Shown here one piece after another: positions 1 through 29,426 of a DNA stretch of 35,588 nt. The stretch comes from Frankia sp. R82 (lineage in GTDB: Bacteria > Actinomycetota > Actinomycetes > Frankiales > Frankiaceae): the NCBI RefSeq assembly GCF_023716925.1, contig NZ_JAMQQG010000294.1, positions 1 through 35,588 on the forward strand. The letters run 5' to 3'. How positions within the stretch are numbered: position 1 is the stretch's first letter; every line of letters starts with the position of its first letter. Below the pieces are notes generated by a model. That model was not told the origin of the DNA. It saw only the letters and a program-made list of their open reading frames with translations, and did not search any database. A program made the position numbers and the translations under genes.

Positions 1-6730
<6,730 letters not shown>

Positions 6731-6731
<1 letters not shown>

Positions 6732-9700
6732 TGGCCACGTCGACGGAGAAGGTCGTCCAGGCACTGCGGACGGCGTTGCTGGACAACGACGCGCTGCGCG
6801 AGCGCAACCGCGACCTCGCGGACGCCGCGGGTGAACCGATCGCGATCGTCGGCATGGGCTGCCGGTATCCGGGCGGGGTGCGGTCCCCCGAACAGCTGTG
6901 GCGCCTGGTCGTCGACGGCGTCGACGCGGTTGGGGCCTTTCCCACCGACCGGGGCTGGGACGTCGACGCGCTGTTCGACCCCGACCCGGACCAGCCGGGC
7001 ACCCTGTACGCGGCCGAGGGCGGTTTCCTCGACGACGCCGGCGCCTTCGACCCCGACTTCTTCGGCATCTCGCCGCGGGAGGCGCTCGCGATGGACCCCC
7101 AGCAGCGGGTCCTGCTGGAGATCGCCTGGGAGGCGGTCGAACGGGCCAACATCGATCCGCACAGCCTGCGGGGCTCCGCCACCGGGGTGTTCGTGGGCGT
7201 GATGGCGACCGACTACGCCGCGCGCCTGCCCGCCGTCCCCGCCGACGTCGAGGGTTTTCTCGGCACCGGTACGGCGTCGAGTGTGGCGTCCGGACGGATC
7301 GCCTACGAGCTGGGCCTGGAAGGTCCGGCGCTGACCCTGGACACGGCCTGCTCGTCGTCACTGGTGGCCCTGCACCTGGCCTGCCAGGCCCTGCGCCGCC
7401 GGGAGTGCGGGCTCGCCCTCGCCGGGGGAGCCACGGTCATGGCGAGCCCGGGGCTGTTCATCGGGTTCAGCCGGCAGCGCGGGCTGTCCCGCGACGGCCG
7501 GTGCAGGTCGTTCGCCGACGCGGCGGACGGCGCCGGGTTCGGGGAGGGAGCCGGTCTGCTGCTGCTCGAACGGCTGTCGGACGCCCGCCGGGCCGGACGG
7601 CCGGTGCTCGCGGTGCTGCGCGGCTCGGCGGTGAACTCCGATGGGGCCAGCAACGGGCTGACCGCGCCGAACGGCCCGTCCCAGCAGCGGGTGATCCGGG
7701 CCGCGCTCGCGGACGCCCGCCTGGACCCGGCCGAGGTCGACGCCGTCGAGGGGCACGGGACCGGGACGACCCTCGGTGACCCGATCGAGGCCCAGGCGCT
7801 GCTGGCGACCTACGGTCGGGACCGGGACCCGCAGCGGCCGCTGTGGCTGGGGTCGCTGAAGTCCAACGTCTCCCACACGCAGGCCGCCGCCGGGGTCGGC
7901 GGCGTCATCAAGATGGTCATGGCGATGCGCCACGGGCTGCTCCCGCGGACCCTGCACGTGGACGGGCCCAGCCGCACCGTCGACTGGTCCGCGGGCGCGG
8001 TCCGACTCCTCACCGAGGCGACGCCGTGGCCGGCCGATGACCGTCCGCGCCGCGCGGGGGTCTCCTCGTTCGGGGTCAGCGGGACGAACGCCCATCTGAT
8101 CGTCGAACAGGCACCGGTGGACGGCCCGACGGACGGCCCGCTCGGCCCGTCACCCGCCCGCGGCACCGACGGCACCGACGGGACCGACGTCGCGTCCCCC
8201 GTCCCGCTGGTCCTGTCGGCGCGCGACGACGAGACGCTGCGGGCCCAGGCCGAGCGGCTGCGGGCCCGACTGGCCGACGCGACGTCCTGGCGTCCGGCCG
8301 ATGTCGGGCACACGCTGGTGACGGCCCGGGCGCGGCATCCGCACCGGGCGGTCGCCGTCGGCGCGGACCCGGGCGGGCTGCTCACCGCGCTTGCCGCGCT
8401 CGCCGACGGGCGTCCCACCCCGATGGTCGTCACCGGCGTGGCGGATGCCGCCCGGGCACCGGTGTTCGTCTTCTCCGGTCAGGGGGCCCAGTGGGCGGGG
8501 ATGGCGCTGGAGCTGGCGGAGTCCTCGGCGGTGTTCCGGTCCTGGCTCGACCGGTGCGCACAGGCGCTCGCCCCGCACGTCGACTGGTCGCTGTGGGATG
8601 TCCTGCGCGGCGCTGCCGGCGCGCCCGGTCTGGACCGGGCCGGCGTCGTCCAGCCGGCGCTGTTCGCGGTGATGACGGCGACGGCCGAGCTGTGGCGGAC
8701 GTTCGGGGTCCGGCCGGCGGCGGTGGTCGGACATTCCCAGGGTGAGATCGCCGCGGCCTGCGTCGCCGGGGCGATCAGCCTGCCCGACGCGGCGCTCGCC
8801 GTCGCGCGCCGTGGTGCGGCGCTGGAGGCGGAGCTCGGCGGGCGGGGCGGGATGGTCGCGGTGGCACTGTCCCGGGCCAAGGTCGAGGCGTTGCTCGCAC
8901 CCTGGGGTGGGCGGCTAGCCGTCGCCGCGGTCAACGCGTCGGACTCGGTCGTCGTCTCGGGGGAGACCGCCGCCCTGGGCGAACTGGTGCAGCGCTGCGC
9001 GAGGGACGGGACGCGGACCCGGTCCATCGCCGTCGACATCGCCTCCCACTCCCCGGCGGTCGACCGGGTCCGCGACCGGCTGCTGGCCGGGCTCGGGCCC
9101 GTGCGGCCGGTTTCCGTCCCGACGCCGTTCTACTCCACGGTGGACGGCGAACGGATCGACACCGCCGCCCTCGACGCCCCCTACTGGCTGCGTAACACCC
9201 GCCAGAGCGTGGAGTTCGAGCGGGCGGTCCGCGCCCTGCTGGCCGACGGGCACCGGACGTTCGTCGAGATCGGTCCGCATCCCGTCCTGACCGCCGCGAT
9301 CGGACAGATCGCCCTGGACGCCGGGCTCGACCTCGCGGGCGTGGCCGGAGCCGGGCCGGACGCCGTCCTGACCATCGCCTCGGGGCGGCGCGACGCGGGT
9401 GGTCTCGACCAGTTCCTGCTCGGGGTGGCCGCGGCGCACGTCCACGGGGTGCCGGTGGACTGGACCGCCGCGTTCACCGGCACCGGTGCGCGGCTCGTCG
9501 ACCTGCCGACCTACCCGTTCCGGCGGCGCCGCTTCTGGCTGGAGGCGGACCGCGGTGCCGGCGGCGACGCCTCGTCGGTCGGTCTGGCCGCCGCCGATCA
9601 TCCGCTGCTGGGGGCGGCCGTCGACTGGCCGGACGCCGGCCCGGTGGCGCTCACCGGCCGCCTGTCCCTTCGCAGCCACCCGTGGCTCGCCGACCACGCG

Positions 9701-23212: not shown

Positions 23213-23373
23213 TGTTTGGATGATCCCGTAGGTTCGCGGAACCCCGGCAGGTTCCGCTTCCCGCACGGCGTCAGCTTGCGGCGTCGGGACTGTTTCAAGA
23301 TCGGTGTTTCCGGCCCGACACGCCGGGCCGAGGTCCGGCGGGATGGGCACTGTGAGTGATCACATCGGGTGGT

Positions 23374-23955
23374 ATGACCCCTCGCAAGGATGATCGTGGG
23401 TTGGGGCGGCAGGTGTCGCCGGAGCAGGCCGCCGCGGTGGCGATGGTCGCGGACGCGAAGGCGCGGGGTCTGGCGTTGACCGGTCCGGACGGCCTGTTGA
23501 AGCTGTTCACCACAACGGCGCTGGAAACAGCCCTGCAGGAGGAGATGGTCGAGTATCTCGGCCATGAGAAGAACCATGCCGATCCGGATCGGGAGAGTAC
23601 GAACATCCGCAACGGTAGTCGGACGAAGACCGTTGTTTCGGAGGTCGCCGGCGATGTTGAGATCATGGTTCCGCGGGATCGGGAAGGAACCTTCGAGCCG
23701 CAGATCGTGAAGAAACGCCGAGAGCTACTGATCAATCATGCCGGAAACACCGTTGGCGACACAGTCCCCACCCCGACGGTCGTCCACCACGGCCAAGCCG
23801 ACAGCGTCCATCAGGCCCGCGCCCAGGTCCTCGACGCCGCCTACGCCGCCCACCCGGAACGGTTCATTCGCCGAGCCCCGACCCCGCCCGAGCTCCCCAC
23901 GCCAGCGTGGATCAAACGACCCGACGAGCAGGAGACCGGCCAGCCAACCAACTAA
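23374..23955 (+). pseudogene. Chimeric transposase ORF: IS256-family head joined to IS3-family tail
   Basis: Residues 1 to about 117 (GLALTGPDGLLKLFTTTALE, EEMVEYLGHEKNHADPDRES, NIRNGSRTKTV, VPRDREGTFEPQIVKKR) are the N-terminus of an IS256/Mutator transposase. At about 23720-23760 this stops and the same frame continues as the C-terminus of an IS3-family orfB (PTVVHHGQADSVHQARAQVL, AAHPERFIRR, PAWIKRP). Neither DDE core is present. A likely IS256 left end (ACTGTTTCAAGATCGG, from about 23289) precedes the head, and the IS3 right end (GCCTCAAACAGCTTGACGG) follows the stop to about 23995. The tail matches the element at the window end, on the opposite strand. Confidence 0.88.
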
Positions 23956-24795: not shown

Positions 24796-25227
24796 TCATC
24801 GACGGATCAGCCGGCGGCGGATCTGCTCCAGATCAGCAGACGTGACGCCGGCGGCGAGCAGGTAGGTCTCGGCGTCGAAACCGTCGGCGATGTCCAGGAC
24901 GGCTTGGTGGGCGGTGGTGTTGTGGGCGGCGAGCTGGGCGTCGATCAATGGATTCTGGTTGTCGACGCCGACCGTGCCCGCGGCTGCCGTGGCGTTCGGT
25001 AGTCCGGGTCTGATCTCGTCGTCGTTGCGCAGGTCGACGACCGTTCGAAGTCCGGCGGCACGGGCGGCGGCCCAGCCGGCGTCGGTGCCGAACCGCGGAT
25101 CGCCGGACCGGTAGTAGACGCCGTACCGGGTGGCCCCGCCGCCGCGGATCGGCAGGCGGCCGAGATCCCGGGTGTTGACGAACCCCTCCCAGTCGACGCC
25201 CCGCCGGGCCGCTGCACTGTCGGTCAT
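24796..25227 (-). pseudogene. Tyrosine-phosphatase-family protein lacking its catalytic loop
   Basis: The start (VDWEGFVNTRDLGRLPIRGGG, YYRSGDP, DAGWAAARAAGLRTVVDLRNDDEI) and the end (DAETYLLAAGVTSADLEQIRRRL) are typical of the actinobacterial dual-specificity/tyrosine phosphatase family (Y_phosphatase3 type, about 240-260 residues). Here the protein has only 143 residues: about 100 residues in the middle, including the HCxxGKDRT phosphate-binding loop, are missing without loss of frame. It cannot be a phosphatase in the usual way. Internal deletion is the simplest reading. The start is uncertain: ATGs at 25227 and 25239 both have weak ribosome sites. Confidence 0.75.
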
Positions 25228-25487
25228 GGCTGACATCATTCCATTTCGTTGCGGTCGATCCGCCGGTGGTCGGCGCATCGGACTGCCCCTGGCGCCGAAA
25301 AACGACGGCATGACTGCTCGCGACAGTACATTGACGGGATTTTGCCGCACGGCTGCGCCTTCAATTTGACCGGCTAGTCGAAGATATTTCCTACCCCGCT
25401 GATGATCCGTTTTTCCGGACGTGCGGGAACCCGTTAATCTGCCTTCGGCGACGATGAGTTCGCCGTTTTCCATAGGCGGAGGGAATC

Positions 25488-25784
25488 ATGAAAAGGACCG
25501 TACGGATCCGAATTTCCGTGCTCGCCATCGCTGGCGCGACGGCGATGGCGCTGGCGGGGGGTTCGGCCACAGCTGCCAACGCCTCGGACGGCTGGGGCGG
25601 CAAGGACAGGGGCTGGAATAACGACAGCTGGGAAAAGGGTTGGAAGGATGACAGCTGGCACAAGGACGGGTGGGACAAGGATGGTTGGCACAAGGACGGC
25701 TGGGGCAAGGACGGGTCGGATAAGGACAAGCGAGGCGAGGACAGAAAGGACAAGGACAGCTGGGACTGGGACTGGGACTGGTGA
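25488..25784 (+). CDS. Small secreted Trp/Asp/Lys/Gly repeat protein
   Basis: Protein of 98 residues with a strong ribosome site (GGAGGGAATC just before the ATG). Residues 1-32 are a Sec signal peptide: basic MKRTVRIR, a hydrophobic core, and an ANA-S cleavage site at 32/33. The mature 66 residues have no Cys and about 12 Trp, in repeated words DGW, DSW and KDGWxKDGW, then a charged KDKRGEDRKDKD segment and a WDWDWDW end. I know no named family. The alternating aromatic-acidic-basic repeats suggest an extended surface or wall-bound protein or a metal or polymer binder; this is inference. It is monocistronic, followed by a strong terminator. Confidence 0.85.
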   Translation: MKRTVRIRISVLAIAGATAMALAGGSATAANASDGWGGKDRGWNNDSWEKGWKDDSWHKDGWDKDGWHKDGWGKDGSDKDKRGEDRKDKDSWDWDWDW

Positions 25785-25814
25785 TCGTCCGGGACCGGTG
25801 ATCGGAAGAACGCC

Positions 25815-25840
25815 GCCCGGCCATCTTTCTCTGGCCGGGC
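25815..25840 (+). terminator. Strong hairpin terminator of the secreted-protein gene
   Basis: A perfect 9-bp stem (GCCCGGCCA with TGGCCGGGC) with an 8-base pyrimidine loop, 30 bases after the stop codon of the secreted repeat protein. Confidence 0.75.
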
Positions 25841-25946
25841 CGCACTGACCGATTATTGCCGGTAAAAATGGTCGGCCGAATTCTTTGACGACCGTGACCG
25901 CGACCGCAACCGCGACGCCTGCGGCGACGTCGCAGGTATTCATGAG

Positions 25947-25990
25947 ATTGCCCCCGGGGTCGGATCGCGACGCCCGGCCCTGGGGGCAAT
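25947..25990. repeat. Inverted repeat with perfect 9-bp arms
   Basis: ATTGCCCCC (25947-25955) and GGGGGCAAT (25982-25990) are perfect inverted copies around a 26-base GC-rich centre. They lie in the gene-free stretch 25841-26074, downstream of the convergent MFS-AraC chimera. It may be a terminator for that minus-strand remnant or a mobile-element end. Confidence 0.45.
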
Positions 25991-26074
25991 CAGCTGCCTG
26001 CTGCGGCGCGGGGTGTCCGACCCTTCCGATTCCGCGTCGTCCTGGCGGCATGCGGTTGCCCTGCCGCATCGGCG

Positions 26075-26350
26075 TCACGGGTCCCGGAACGCCCTCCGAT
26101 AGGCGCCAGGGGTCGTGCCGAGCCGAGCGCGGAAGCAGCGGCGCAGGTTGACAGCGGAGGCGAGCACCAGCGGGCCAAGCCCGACCAGCCCGGCCAGCCC
26201 CACCCAGGCCGAGGAGCCGGTGATCTCGTAGATCTGCAGCGGAACCGCGACCGCGGTGAGCTGAGCTCCCACTGTGGTGACGACCGTGGACGCCCACAGC
26301 CGCCGGTACGGCTTCACCCGCAACGGACGGAGATCAGCCGTGAACCGCAC
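26075..26350 (-). pseudogene. In-frame chimera: MFS transporter N-terminus joined to AraC-family C-terminus
   Basis: The GTG at 26350 has GGAGG six bases upstream and begins FTADLRPLRVKPYRRLW, TVGAQLTAVAVPLQIYEITGSSAWVGLAGLVGL, the first one to two helices of an EntS-like MFS exporter. Near 26150 the sequence becomes NLRRCFRARLGTTPGAYRRAFR, the last helix-turn-helix end of an AraC-family regulator, and stops. Neither half can do its family's job. A deletion between an MFS gene and an AraC gene explains it. Confidence 0.75.
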
Positions 26351-27234: not shown

Positions 27235-27487
27235 ATGACGTGACGGTAGCGAGGAATCGCCCGGTCATCGGCTGTGCCCGCCGGGGGTGTAGTGAGCCCA
27301 GGTTCCGCCGGCGTCGGCGCGGTACCACTGTGCGTCCTCCCCACGCCCGTGGGGTGATCCGTGAGGGCCCGTACCGCACTGGACGAGATGGATCCTGTCT
27401 ACACCGGTGGACAGCCGCCGGCCGCCCGGATGGACCAGGCCGATGTCCAACGCCCTTGTCCAGGCGTCTCGGCCGGCTGGAAATTGT
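27235..27487 (-). other. Gap with a coding-like remnant of unknown family
   Basis: A minus-strand frame ending at a TGA near 27265 reads GVDRIHLVQCGTG, then EDAQWYRADAGGTWAHY, with protein-like composition but no start of its own, because upstream the frame runs through rdgB. It may be the tail of a lost gene. The same bases hold the CRISPR-repeat-like palindrome listed separately. Confidence 0.35.
27334..27361 (+). repeat. Solitary sequence resembling a type I-E CRISPR repeat
   Basis: GTCCTCCCC, ACGCCCGT, GGGGTGATCCG read in order, with the palindrome CCCCACG...CGTGGGG. It looks like the 28-29-base type I-E repeats of actinomycetes, one G short. There is no second copy at spacer distance on either side and no cas gene in the window, so this is at most a relic. 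Confidence 0.35.
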
Positions 27488-29426
27488 TCAGAGGTTCGGT
27501 GTCGCGAGTGTCTGGCGGAGGGCGTCGATGGCGAGTCGGCGGTGGGAGATCGCGTTTTTCTGTTCGGTCGGCATCTGTGCGAGGGTGTGGACGCTGCCGG
27601 TGGGTGTGAAGATGCTGTCGTAGCCGTGGCCACCGTCGCCATGTGGCTGTGTGGTCAGTGTTCCGTGCAGGGTGCCGGTGACGACGTGGACGCCATTGTC
27701 GTCGGCGTAGCCGAGGGCGGTCGTGGCGATCGCGTGGCGGTCGGTCACGCCGGCGGCCATGTCCAGCAGGCCCTGAATGCCGACCGTGTTCAGGAACCAG
27801 GCGACGAGGGCGCCGGGTAGGCCGTTCCAGGCGGGTAGGGCCAGGCCGGTGTCGTCGACGAGTACCGGGCGTTGCAGCTTCGCGTAGGCGTCCTCGGCTT
27901 TGCGTTCCACCACGGTCGCGACGTCGAGGGACTGGATCTCGATGAGCTTCACCGTGGTGGTGGCCACGGGGACGCCCAGCAGGCTGGAGTATTCGCGAGC
28001 CTTCCCTTCGTTCCCGGTGACGATCGTGACACGGTCGATCATGGGTGCTCCCTGACGTGAGTCCGAACGCGAGCGATCTGGTTCGATCCTGGATCAGGAC
28101 GGTCTTAGGATCTGCCGCTCGTCCTGTATCCGCTGCGGCGTCGTGGCTGAGCCCGAACGTGAGCCCGAACGCGAGCCAGGCCGTGAGCCCGGCCGGGAGC
28201 CCGAACGCGAGCCAGGCCGTGAGCCCGGCCGGGAGCCCGAACGCGAGCCAGGCCGTGAGCCCGAACGCGAGGAATGGGAGTGTTCGTGGCATAGCGCGTT
28301 GCAGTTCCCACCAGGCGAGGCTGGTGGTGTGTAGGCGGTGTTCGAGGTGGCGGGCGAGGAAGGTGAGGTACTGCTCTGCCTGTTGGGGGGTCCAGCGGGG
28401 GGTGGGTTGGTCGGGGTGGGGGCGGTAGGCGGCGGGGATGAACTCGGTGAACAGGTGCTGTTCGATGGCGTCCGGGGTGGGCAGGGTGGTGAGGTCCGTG
28501 GGGTTGGGGAGGCCGAGGGTGGATTCGCGCGGTCGCGGGTTGTAGATCGTGCTGGTGAGGCTGCCTGCGAGTGGGGTCGTGAGCGCCTGGGCGAGCGGTG
28601 AGGTGGGGGTTGCCAGCGCAGCCAGGACGGGTGCCCACCGCACTGATCCATGCGTGCCTGCGTTGGCCAGCAGGTAGTCGCCCATCGCCGGTGCGGTCAG
28701 GGGTGTGAGATGGATGCCGGCGGCGCCAGCAAGGTGGGTCGACGGCCAGTCGGGACGGGGGTGCACGGCGGCGCGGAACTCGCCGGGGCGGCTGCTGACG
28801 ATAAGCCCGACGTTGCCGCGCAGGCCGTCGTTGAGGGCGACGAGTACCTGGTCTCGGCCGTCGGCGAAGATTTCGTCGAGACCGTCCAGGACGGGCAGGA
28901 TCAGGCCGGCGTCGAGAAGCGCACCGGCGCGGGTGCGGCCGGTCGCGGAGTCCACCGCGGCCAGGTGGGCGTACTCCCGCAGGATCTGGGACTCCAACCA
29001 GGTGTAAAGGCTCGGTCCGGTCGGGTTCCAGGCGGCCAGCGGGAGCAGCAGTGGCACCGGATCGCCGGGCTGGCGTCGGTCGAGCAAGTCCAGGACGAGA
29101 CGTACCAGCAGAACCGTCTTCCCCGCGCCAGCCTCCCCGAGCACGACGAGGCGCTTACAGGGGCTGCGCTCGTAGGCCGCCAGCAGCGCACCACCCCCGG
29201 CGAGATCACCCGGGCCGCTGCCTGGCGTTGCGGACGCCGGTCCGTTCCCTCCGCCTGCCGCCTGCCGTTGCAGCTCGGCCCAGGGACTCACCAGGTCGGC
29301 GTCGACCTCCTGCCAGAACACCTTCAGGGACGACCCGCGGACCCTGCGGCGCCTGGCCTCGATGTCCCACTGATCACGCACCAGGTCGGCGAGCCGGTCG
29401 GCGACTGTGGCGATGTCCCAAGTCAC
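27399..29426 (-). CDS. NACHT-family STAND ATPase, C-terminally truncated; ORF reads on through rdgB
   Basis: GTG start; frame of 675 codons, of which about 430 are real. Walker A GEAGAGKT is at residues 97-104 and the NACHT Walker B LPVLDGLDEI at 177-186, followed by SSRPGEF (sensor-like Arg) and the HLTPLTAPAM and YNPRP regions shared with the divergent neighbour. Residues about 385-430 are membrane-like 12-residue repeats (AFGLPAGLTAWL). The family tail (YQFRHIELQRRLA in the neighbour) is missing; after about 28140 the frame crosses junk and then all of rdgB out of frame, giving an Arg/His/Pro-rich end with no sense. So this is a truncated or decaying NACHT gene, or a shortened form with a junk tail. 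Its N-terminal membrane part lies in the overlapping frame at 29374-29625. Confidence 0.7.
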   Translation of the reverse strand: MTWDIATVADRLADLVRDQWDIEARRRRVRGSSLKVFWQEVDADLVSPWAELQRQAAGGGNGPASATPGSGPGDLAGGGALLAAYERSPCKRLVVLGEAGAGKTVLLVRLVLDLLDRRQPGDPVPLLLPLAAWNPTGPSLYTWLESQILREYAHLAAVDSATGRTRAGALLDAGLILPVLDGLDEIFADGRDQVLVALNDGLRGNVGLIVSSRPGEFRAAVHPRPDWPSTHLAGAAGIHLTPLTAPAMGDYLLANAGTHGSVRWAPVLAALATPTSPLAQALTTPLAGSLTSTIYNPRPRESTLGLPNPTDLTTLPTPDAIEQHLFTEFIPAAYRPHPDQPTPRWTPQQAEQYLTFLARHLEHRLHTTSLAWWELQRAMPRTLPFLAFGLTAWLAFGLPAGLTAWLAFGLPAGLTAWLAFGLTFGLSHDAAADTGRAADPKTVLIQDRTRSLAFGLTSGSTHDRPCHDRHRERREGSRILQPAGRPRGHHHGEAHRDPVPRRRDRGGTQSRGRLREAATPGTRRRHRPGPTRLERPTRRPRRLVPEHGRHSGPAGHGRRRDRPPRDRHDRPRLRRRQWRPRRHRHPARNTDHTATWRRWPRLRQHLHTHRQRPHPRTDADRTEKRDLPPPTRHRRPPPDTRDTEPLNNFQPAETPGQGRWTSAWSIRAAGGCPPV
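27488..28042 (-). CDS. RdgB/HAM1-family non-canonical purine NTP pyrophosphatase
   Basis: Protein of 184 residues that hydrolyses ITP, dITP or XTP to the monophosphate and PPi, by family. Motifs: VTGNEGKAREY at the start, VERKAEDAYAKL, VDDTGLALPAWNGLPGALVAWFLNT (the conserved DDSGL/G.PG region), GYDSIFTP, and SHRRLAIDALR at the end. GGGAG lies five bases before the ATG at 28042. Variation from the housekeeping rdgB suggests a second, accessory copy. It lies on the same strand immediately downstream of the truncated NACHT gene, whose reading frame passes through the whole of it in another frame. Confidence 0.9.
   Translation of the reverse strand: MIDRVTIVTGNEGKAREYSSLLGVPVATTTVKLIEIQSLDVATVVERKAEDAYAKLQRPVLVDDTGLALPAWNGLPGALVAWFLNTVGIQGLLDMAAGVTDRHAIATTALGYADDNGVHVVTGTLHGTLTTQPHGDGGHGYDSIFTPTGSVHTLAQMPTEQKNAISHRRLAIDALRQTLATPNL
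28163..28262 (-). repeat. 36-bp tandem repeat coding for membrane segments of the truncated NACHT protein
   Basis: Two perfect 36-base units (28163-28198, 28199-28234) and a partial third (28235-28262). On the minus strand each codes for AFGLPAGLTAWL. Shorter related units (GAGCCCGAACG) flank them, showing growth by slippage or unequal crossing-over. Confidence 0.85.

Follow-up and report, generated by a model that had tools for sequence, protein, structure and literature searches.

A tryptophan-rich KDxW-repeat protein family with predicted secretion signals in Frankiaceae

The DNA stretch analyzed here (the window) comprises 35,588 nucleotides of Frankia sp. R82 and carries, at positions 25488 to 25784 of the plus strand, a gene for a putatively secreted KDxW-repeat protein of 98 amino acids (stop codon included in the coordinates). 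The initial annotation had placed this gene exactly, with the ATG at 25488 and the TGA ending at 25784, and the ribosome-binding site that it reported can be read from the sequence as GGAGG (25478 to 25482, plus strand), 5 bases upstream of the ATG; G-rich sites at a comparable distance from the ATG are also found in relatives of the gene. Residues 1 to 32 (25488 to 25583, plus strand) have by eye the features of a signal peptide, with a basic N-terminus followed by a hydrophobic core and an A-x-A cleavage motif, ANA, at residues 30 to 32. Both A30 and A32 are invariant in the 16 sequences of a family alignment (A2), in agreement with the secreted product that had been proposed. The predicted mature chain (residues 33 to 98; 25584 to 25781, plus strand) contains 66 residues, including 12 Trp, 18 Asp, 11 Lys, 3 Arg, 2 His, 2 Glu, 11 Gly, and no Cys, which corresponds to the Cys-free, Trp-rich chain described previously and gives a net charge of -6. 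Within it lie four tandem xKDG[W/S] pentapeptides (25659 to 25718, plus strand), the last of which ends in Ser (TCG) and the others in Trp (TGG), and the chain closes, as had been noted, with a WDWDWDW tail at residues 92 to 98 (25761 to 25781, plus strand). The mature chain is exceptional in its Trp content: among 36,492 segments of 66 residues in six-frame stop-free stretches, the mean was 1.0 Trp, and only the mature chain reached 12. The third-codon G+C content of the gene is 0.83, and its repeats vary in synonymous codons (GGG, GGT, or GGC for Gly and GAC or GAT for Asp).

Downstream of the stop codon, positions 25796 to 25858 (plus strand) can form a hairpin with an inner 9-bp G+C-rich stem (25815 to 25840), a possible terminator that lacks a T-run. 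The hairpin has a folding energy of -36.2 kcal/mol (z = -2.05), and 8 of 200 shuffled sequences folded equally well or better. The "strong terminator" of the initial annotation is therefore fair for the stem only, since the hairpin has no T-run and does not appear among the sites listed by a consensus terminator scan. That scan instead placed a weaker 6-bp stem at 25858 to 25876, one of 3 sites that it listed in 1 kb versus 0.7 expected. No sigma-70-type promoter was found by a promoter scan of positions 25200 to 26200, and an Rfam search of the window at the gathering threshold detected no regulatory RNA near the gene. Far from the gene, the same search returned two minus-strand matches to ASpks (1908 to 1982 and 7787 to 7861) lying opposite long open reading frames (ORFs) that by eye resemble polyketide synthases; these matches probably reflect similarity in coding sequence and not antisense RNA. 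Elsewhere in the window, an ORF at 23356 to 23955 matched just positions 17 to 97 of the 379 positions of a Mutator transposase model and is thus a truncated transposase, and a partial phosphatase match lies in the same part of the window as the KDxW gene. At 27399 to 29426, the C-terminal part of an ORF encoding a NACHT domain overlaps a same-strand Ham1-family ORF that uses a different frame, which suggests that the NACHT reading frame is truncated or shifted.

Relatives of the window protein were assigned to a first type (type I) when individually read ORFs encoded [x]KD[D/G]W repeats behind a signal peptide and had a Trp close to the C-terminal end. The window protein has all three features, with the signal peptide judged by eye, Trp recurring preferentially every five residues in a Lys-Asp context, and a near-C-terminal Trp. 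Type I copies were present in 24 of 35 Frankiaceae genomes, for a total of 25 copies, two of them in a single genome (G003). By genus, the window's own (g1) had them in 12 of 13 genomes, g5 in 6 of 6, g7 in 6 of 8, g6 in 0 of 5, and the remaining genera in 0 of 3. Several kinds of search contributed to this picture. A contig search with the window protein returned two loci, of which L007, from Frankia torreyi CpI1 (genome G011), is a full-length relative, and a single-protein search within g1 matched 12 of 13 genomes at E ≤ 0.1, many of these matches being merely low-complexity stretches. Alignment-based searches of the 35 Frankiaceae genomes matched 22 at E ≤ 0.001 in a first search and 24 at E ≤ 1e-6 in a wider one. 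In a class-wide sample of 393 genomes that included those 35, with at most ten candidates scored per genome, 28 genomes matched at E ≤ 1e-5, namely, 26 from Frankiaceae and 2 from among the other 358 genomes. Both of the latter matches were weak. One of the two (G167, L090) encodes a short secreted-looking protein rich in Trp, Asp, and His that has no KD unit, and the other (G123, L093) is a match in which the script chose an unrelated frame and which was not counted as a member. Among the genomes sampled, type I is thus seen only in Frankiaceae, with no clear member outside. The initial annotation had suggested a search for homologues across actinomycetes; relatives do exist, but the range it envisaged was too wide, as the family is confined to Frankiaceae in this sample.

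Several matches were left out of the type I counts, namely, a protein with WADPG repeats and no convincing signal peptide (L021, G012), a Roseiarcaceae record matching residues 8 to 41 only (L008), a locus at which the script gave no family ORF (L054, G026), and two loci on contig 73 of G011 with no readable family ORF (L061 and L103). A protein of a different kind in G032 (L092) and one of the anchor type described below in G034 (L091) were likewise not counted as type I, and the remaining weak low-complexity matches of the single-protein searches were kept out of the counts.

The distribution among genera bears on the idea that the protein is a symbiosis-related secreted effector or a signal directed toward actinorhizal plants. 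The genus includes plant symbionts and the protein is small and apparently secreted. However, type I copies occur in 6 of 8 genomes of g7, which looks to us like the non-nodulating Pseudofrankia, and in none of the 5 genomes of g6, which looks like the symbiont Protofrankia (we likewise take G001, G003, and G028 to be strains ACN14a, CcI3, and EuI1c). If these assumed names are right, the pattern is the opposite of that of a symbiosis gene, and presence in non-nodulating strains together with absence from cluster-2 symbionts argues against a symbiosis-specific role, making this explanation a rather improbable one.

Proteins of such biased composition may match one another through composition alone. 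A profile built from 19 other members scored the window protein at 51.5 bits after bias correction (82.4 bits uncorrected). Shuffling the mature chain, the signal region, or the whole protein (200 times each) gave best bias-corrected scores of 36.2, 43.3, and 4.6 bits, respectively (uncorrected, 65.8, 74.2, and 39.5 bits), and none of the 600 shuffled sequences reached 51.5 bits. When the same profile was compared with 507 six-frame stretches of the window, the KDxW gene was the sole match above the threshold (E = 2.6e-15). At the level of sequence comparison, the homology of the window protein to the family exceeds shared composition. Among six orthologues in g1, the first 51 codons gave dN/dS values of 0.08 to 0.41 over 15 pairs, with 4 to 14 nucleotide differences each; these orthologues sit at another genomic place, and the divergent window copy lies outside this measurement. 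The first 51 codons of these six orthologues are under purifying selection, with small counts that point in the same direction in all pairs.

These results weigh on the alternative that the ORF arose by chance or is decaying low-complexity sequence. The truncated transposase-like ORF and the partial phosphatase match in the same stretch of the window, and the location of the window copy outside the usual g1 place, would be compatible with such an origin. Against it stand the family profile score that no shuffled sequence reached, the purifying selection in the orthologues, the third-codon G+C content, and the GGAGG ribosome-binding site. At the family level the sequence comparisons refute a chance ORF, and as an account of the window copy it is hardly credible. 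An absence of homologues in related genomes had been named beforehand as the finding that would favor chance; the type I homologues in 24 of the 35 Frankiaceae genomes remove that objection. Judged by its sequence, the window ORF is a genuine gene that belongs to a conserved family.

Across 20 type I members with 276 Trp-Trp intervals, an interval of exactly five occurred 119 times versus a shuffled mean of 22.0 and an interval of ten occurred 34 times versus 9.5, whereas an interval of two, seen 35 times versus 35.2 in shuffled sequences, was not enriched overall. In these members, the position preceding Trp is mostly Asp and then Gly, position -2 is Asp 206 times, and position -3 is Lys 165 times, versus 53 instances of this Lys-to-Trp spacing in shuffled sequences. 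The family is built on the unit x-K-D-[D/G]-W, and its Trp residues tend to recur every 5 positions, which supports the "charge-paired repeats" of the initial annotation. The window protein by itself contains five Trp-Trp intervals of five, compared with a shuffled mean of 0.93 (P = 0.002). The period has exceptions: one of the G003 copies (CcI3b) prefers six, and no interval of five occurs in G029. The members range from 89 to 190 residues in length; in 19 of 20, Trp falls within the three C-terminal residues, the exception being G008, and 7 of 20, the window protein included, have an alternating W-x-W-x-W or longer end. Repeat codons are nearly uniform in relatives, with 8 of 10 KD[D/G]W units identical in G001 and two kinds of four units each in F. 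torreyi. This uniformity fits recent duplication at the DNA level or codon bias as well as it fits selection.

The abundance of Asp raises the possibility that the protein is a cation or metal buffer, in which Asp-rich pentapeptides would retain metals such as Ca2+ or Fe3+ at the wall and Trp would be structural. With 18 of the 66 residues, Asp is the commonest in the mature chain, and some members contain His or Cys, with 16 His in G005 and 7 Cys in G006. Nevertheless, the EF-hand-like pattern D-x-D-x-D-G was seen once in the 20 members versus 5.1 times in shuffled sequences, a looser form of it was seen once versus 9.0 times, and the 20 acidic residues of the window mature chain are offset by 14 basic ones. 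No metal uptake gene was present among the scanned neighbors; a Na+/H+ antiporter gene was seen near one relative (L067). Calcium binding of the EF-hand kind was rejected on the depletion of its motif, and with it the EF-hand form of the metal binding that had been suggested for this protein; metal buffering in general is unlikely. A cationic antimicrobial peptide was also considered and is unlikely because of the net charge of -6 in the window protein and the negative charge of 16 of the 20 type I members (the others being G033 at 0, G031 at +1, G029 at +2, and one G003 copy at +4), with cleavage sites for these counts taken from a simple pattern that placed the G021 site too early.

The same composition could also suit a protein of the LEA/hydrophilin kind that protects against drying or maintains hydration, its charged and disordered chain keeping hyphae or spores hydrated. 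The high charge of the protein and the low order predicted for it agree with this. An AlphaFold model had low confidence throughout (mean pLDDT, 49.6) and was built on an alignment of two sequences only, with DSSP assigning nothing, so that the low pLDDT is weak evidence of a disordered chain. A hydrophilin is disfavored, however, because a Trp content of 12 in 66 residues sets the protein apart from the hydrophilins known to us and because the Trp spacing is the most widely kept feature of the family; we regard this function, too, as improbable.

No named family in the libraries searched accounts for the protein. The best Pfam match to the window protein had an E value of 0.19 and carries no weight, two proteins searched against PHROGs gave no match, and the window protein matched neither PDB sequences nor plasmids; a phage or plasmid origin was rejected on the PHROG result for the two proteins and the plasmid result for the window protein. 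The nearest named family is NCBIfam TIGR02953 (pentapeptide MXKDX repeat), which the proteins resemble at scores below the cutoff. Like the window family, TIGR02953 consists of small proteins with an N-terminal hydrophobic region and pentapeptide repeats with a central Lys-Asp, but its unit is based on Met, whereas the unit here is the Trp-based xKD[D/G]W and the window mature chain contains no Met. The window protein scored 14.5 bits against a curated cutoff of 41, and the type I relatives L007, L041, L045, and L051 scored 25.6, 20.0, 27.7, and 17.0 bits, all below it; L010 had no match at E ≤ 1, and three anchor-type proteins had no match. None of 34 Frankiaceae genomes exceeded the cutoff (best score, 28.6 bits), and none of 14 control genomes matched. 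The earlier statement that the protein belongs to no known family is thus right for Pfam, PHROGs, and PDB, with TIGR02953 similar in architecture and nothing tested passing its cutoff. The literature bearing the TIGR02953 family name, in the portions available, concerns proteins of Asaia bogorensis. No description of the Frankiaceae proteins was found in a literature search that used estimated locus tags and a scope lying outside most subscription journals, and the available portions of PMC2266912, PMC3188489, PMC10520049, and PMC10252897 contain no recognizable mention of them.

In eight g1 genomes (G001 to G005 and G009 to G011), the KDxW gene occupies one common neighborhood. Where the contig extends far enough, the KDxW gene is flanked by a DUF3291 gene and, on the opposite side, by a methyltransferase gene, an ORF resembling trigger factor by eye, or both. 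An L,D-transpeptidase gene or fragment also adjoins the KDxW gene in most of these eight genomes, including at L007, the sole locus of this neighborhood that was checked with Pfam. The gene lies elsewhere in G006, G007, G008, the second G003 copy, and the window. In g5, the copies at L111, L112, and L119 adjoin a DUF456 gene (Pfam checked in L111), and in g7, those at L113 and L115 lie between FAA-hydrolase and dehydrogenase-E1 genes (Pfam checked in L113). A conserved operon was therefore ruled out, and the differing neighbors indicate that the gene is independent of fixed neighbors; among the scanned loci, no neighbor of consistent cell-surface function between genera was found, which counts against the surface role proposed below, although an L,D-transpeptidase gene adjoins the L007 copy. 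The window's genome (G000) retains the g1 neighborhood at positions 4700 to 5650 of L121 (contig C319), with a transpeptidase match at 66 percent identity, and no recognizable KDxW gene is present in that neighborhood. We infer that the gene has moved.

The neighbors also inform the earlier suggestion of a RiPP-like substrate, according to which the protein would be a precursor with cross-linked or otherwise modified Trp. The repeated words Lys-x-x-Trp and Trp-x-Lys recall cross-linked peptides such as streptide, and a cytochrome P450 gene (L067:10740 to 12038) adjoins the G007 copy; cytochrome P450s modify some RiPPs, and this gene is the only contextual point in favor of such a precursor. 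However, the protein has a Sec-type signal peptide in place of a RiPP leader, the P450 gene was found at one of seven related loci, and neighbors are not conserved between genera. A Pfam scan of 10 window proteins and of 17 proteins from the seven related loci detected no radical-SAM, YcaO, or lanthipeptide enzyme. A RiPP precursor is for these reasons very improbable.

A second type of relative, here called the anchor type, combines a similar signal region and KD-rich words with an anchor-like C-terminus. It is represented by 12 copies in 12 genomes (G000, G001, G002, G003, G006, G007, G010, G011, G017, G018, G020, and G034), many of which also carry type I. One copy, L095:556 to 1104 (contig C188 of G000), is encoded in the window's own genome, and the others are L062, L097, L098, L099, L101, L102, L109, L052, L056, L064, and L091. 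The C-terminal motif is LP[LIV]AG in 9 of the 12, IPLAG in two (L062 and L101), and APLVG in one (L091), and in all 12 it is followed by a hydrophobic stretch and then RRR. This arrangement resembles that of sortase-type wall-anchored proteins (Pfam PF00746, Gram_pos_anchor, and the NCBIfam sorting domain NF058571), which likewise end in a motif, hydrophobic stretch, and basic residues, but of three copies scanned, matches to these models were below threshold in two and absent in one. L095 scored 13.1 bits for Gram_pos_anchor (cutoff, 20) and 15.1 bits for the sorting domain (cutoff, 29), L052 matched only the sorting domain at a subthreshold 14.2 bits, and L062 matched neither model. The window protein, in contrast to sortase-anchored proteins, ends in WDWDWDW and has no LPxTG-like motif, hydrophobic stretch, or basic tail. 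The anchor-type genes at L052, L056, L062, and L064 are preceded by a nearly identical upstream stretch with the palindrome TCACTCGCAGTGA, which does not occur in the window when one mismatch is allowed.

With about even odds, in our estimate, the window protein is a Sec-exported, mostly disordered, low-complexity surface protein of Frankiaceae that self-associates into a coat on the hyphae, perhaps tethered by the anchor-type paralogue. The signal peptide would direct export through Sec to the cell surface, after which the regularly spaced Trp residues may act as stickers through Trp-Trp stacking and Lys-Trp cation-pi contacts, with the Lys-Asp pairs serving as soluble, largely self-neutralizing spacers. 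Self-association could then produce a condensed, adhesive, or hydrated coat, and the anchor-type protein, whose words are of a like kind, may fasten this coat to the envelope. The surface adhesion suggested in the initial annotation is likewise a putative role. Aromatic sticker-and-spacer disordered proteins have a comparable layout, with aromatic residues placed at regular intervals along a charged chain whose predicted order is low. To our knowledge, the known examples in the condensate literature are intracellular. The window protein differs in being bacterial and, as read from its sequence, secreted, and the likeness measured here is one of spacing and composition.

A more far-reaching and rather speculative version of the hyphal coat is that these proteins form an undescribed extracellular material of Frankiaceae, in which a secreted polymer of Trp stickers and Lys-Asp spacers and an envelope-anchored partner would condense into a protein coat on hyphae, a natural secreted condensate or glue. 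The polymer in question has the preferred period of five, and in several members its end tag alternates Trp and Asp. What had seemed an odd single ORF belongs to a conserved, lineage-specific family of apparently secreted proteins that is unnamed in Pfam, NCBIfam, and PHROGs. If the sticker-and-spacer arrangement is correct, these proteins would offer a simple, naturally occurring plan for secreted coats or adhesives, as well as a new candidate mechanism for the contact of Frankia hyphae with soil, with one another, and with hosts.

A third type of small, secreted-looking protein was observed at L096 (G001) and L060 (G009). These proteins are built of NWDRQ-like pentapeptides with Trp at period five and carry Arg, Gln, and Asn where type I has Lys and Asp. 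An ORF at L100 (G003) is similar to this third type and has no regular repeat.
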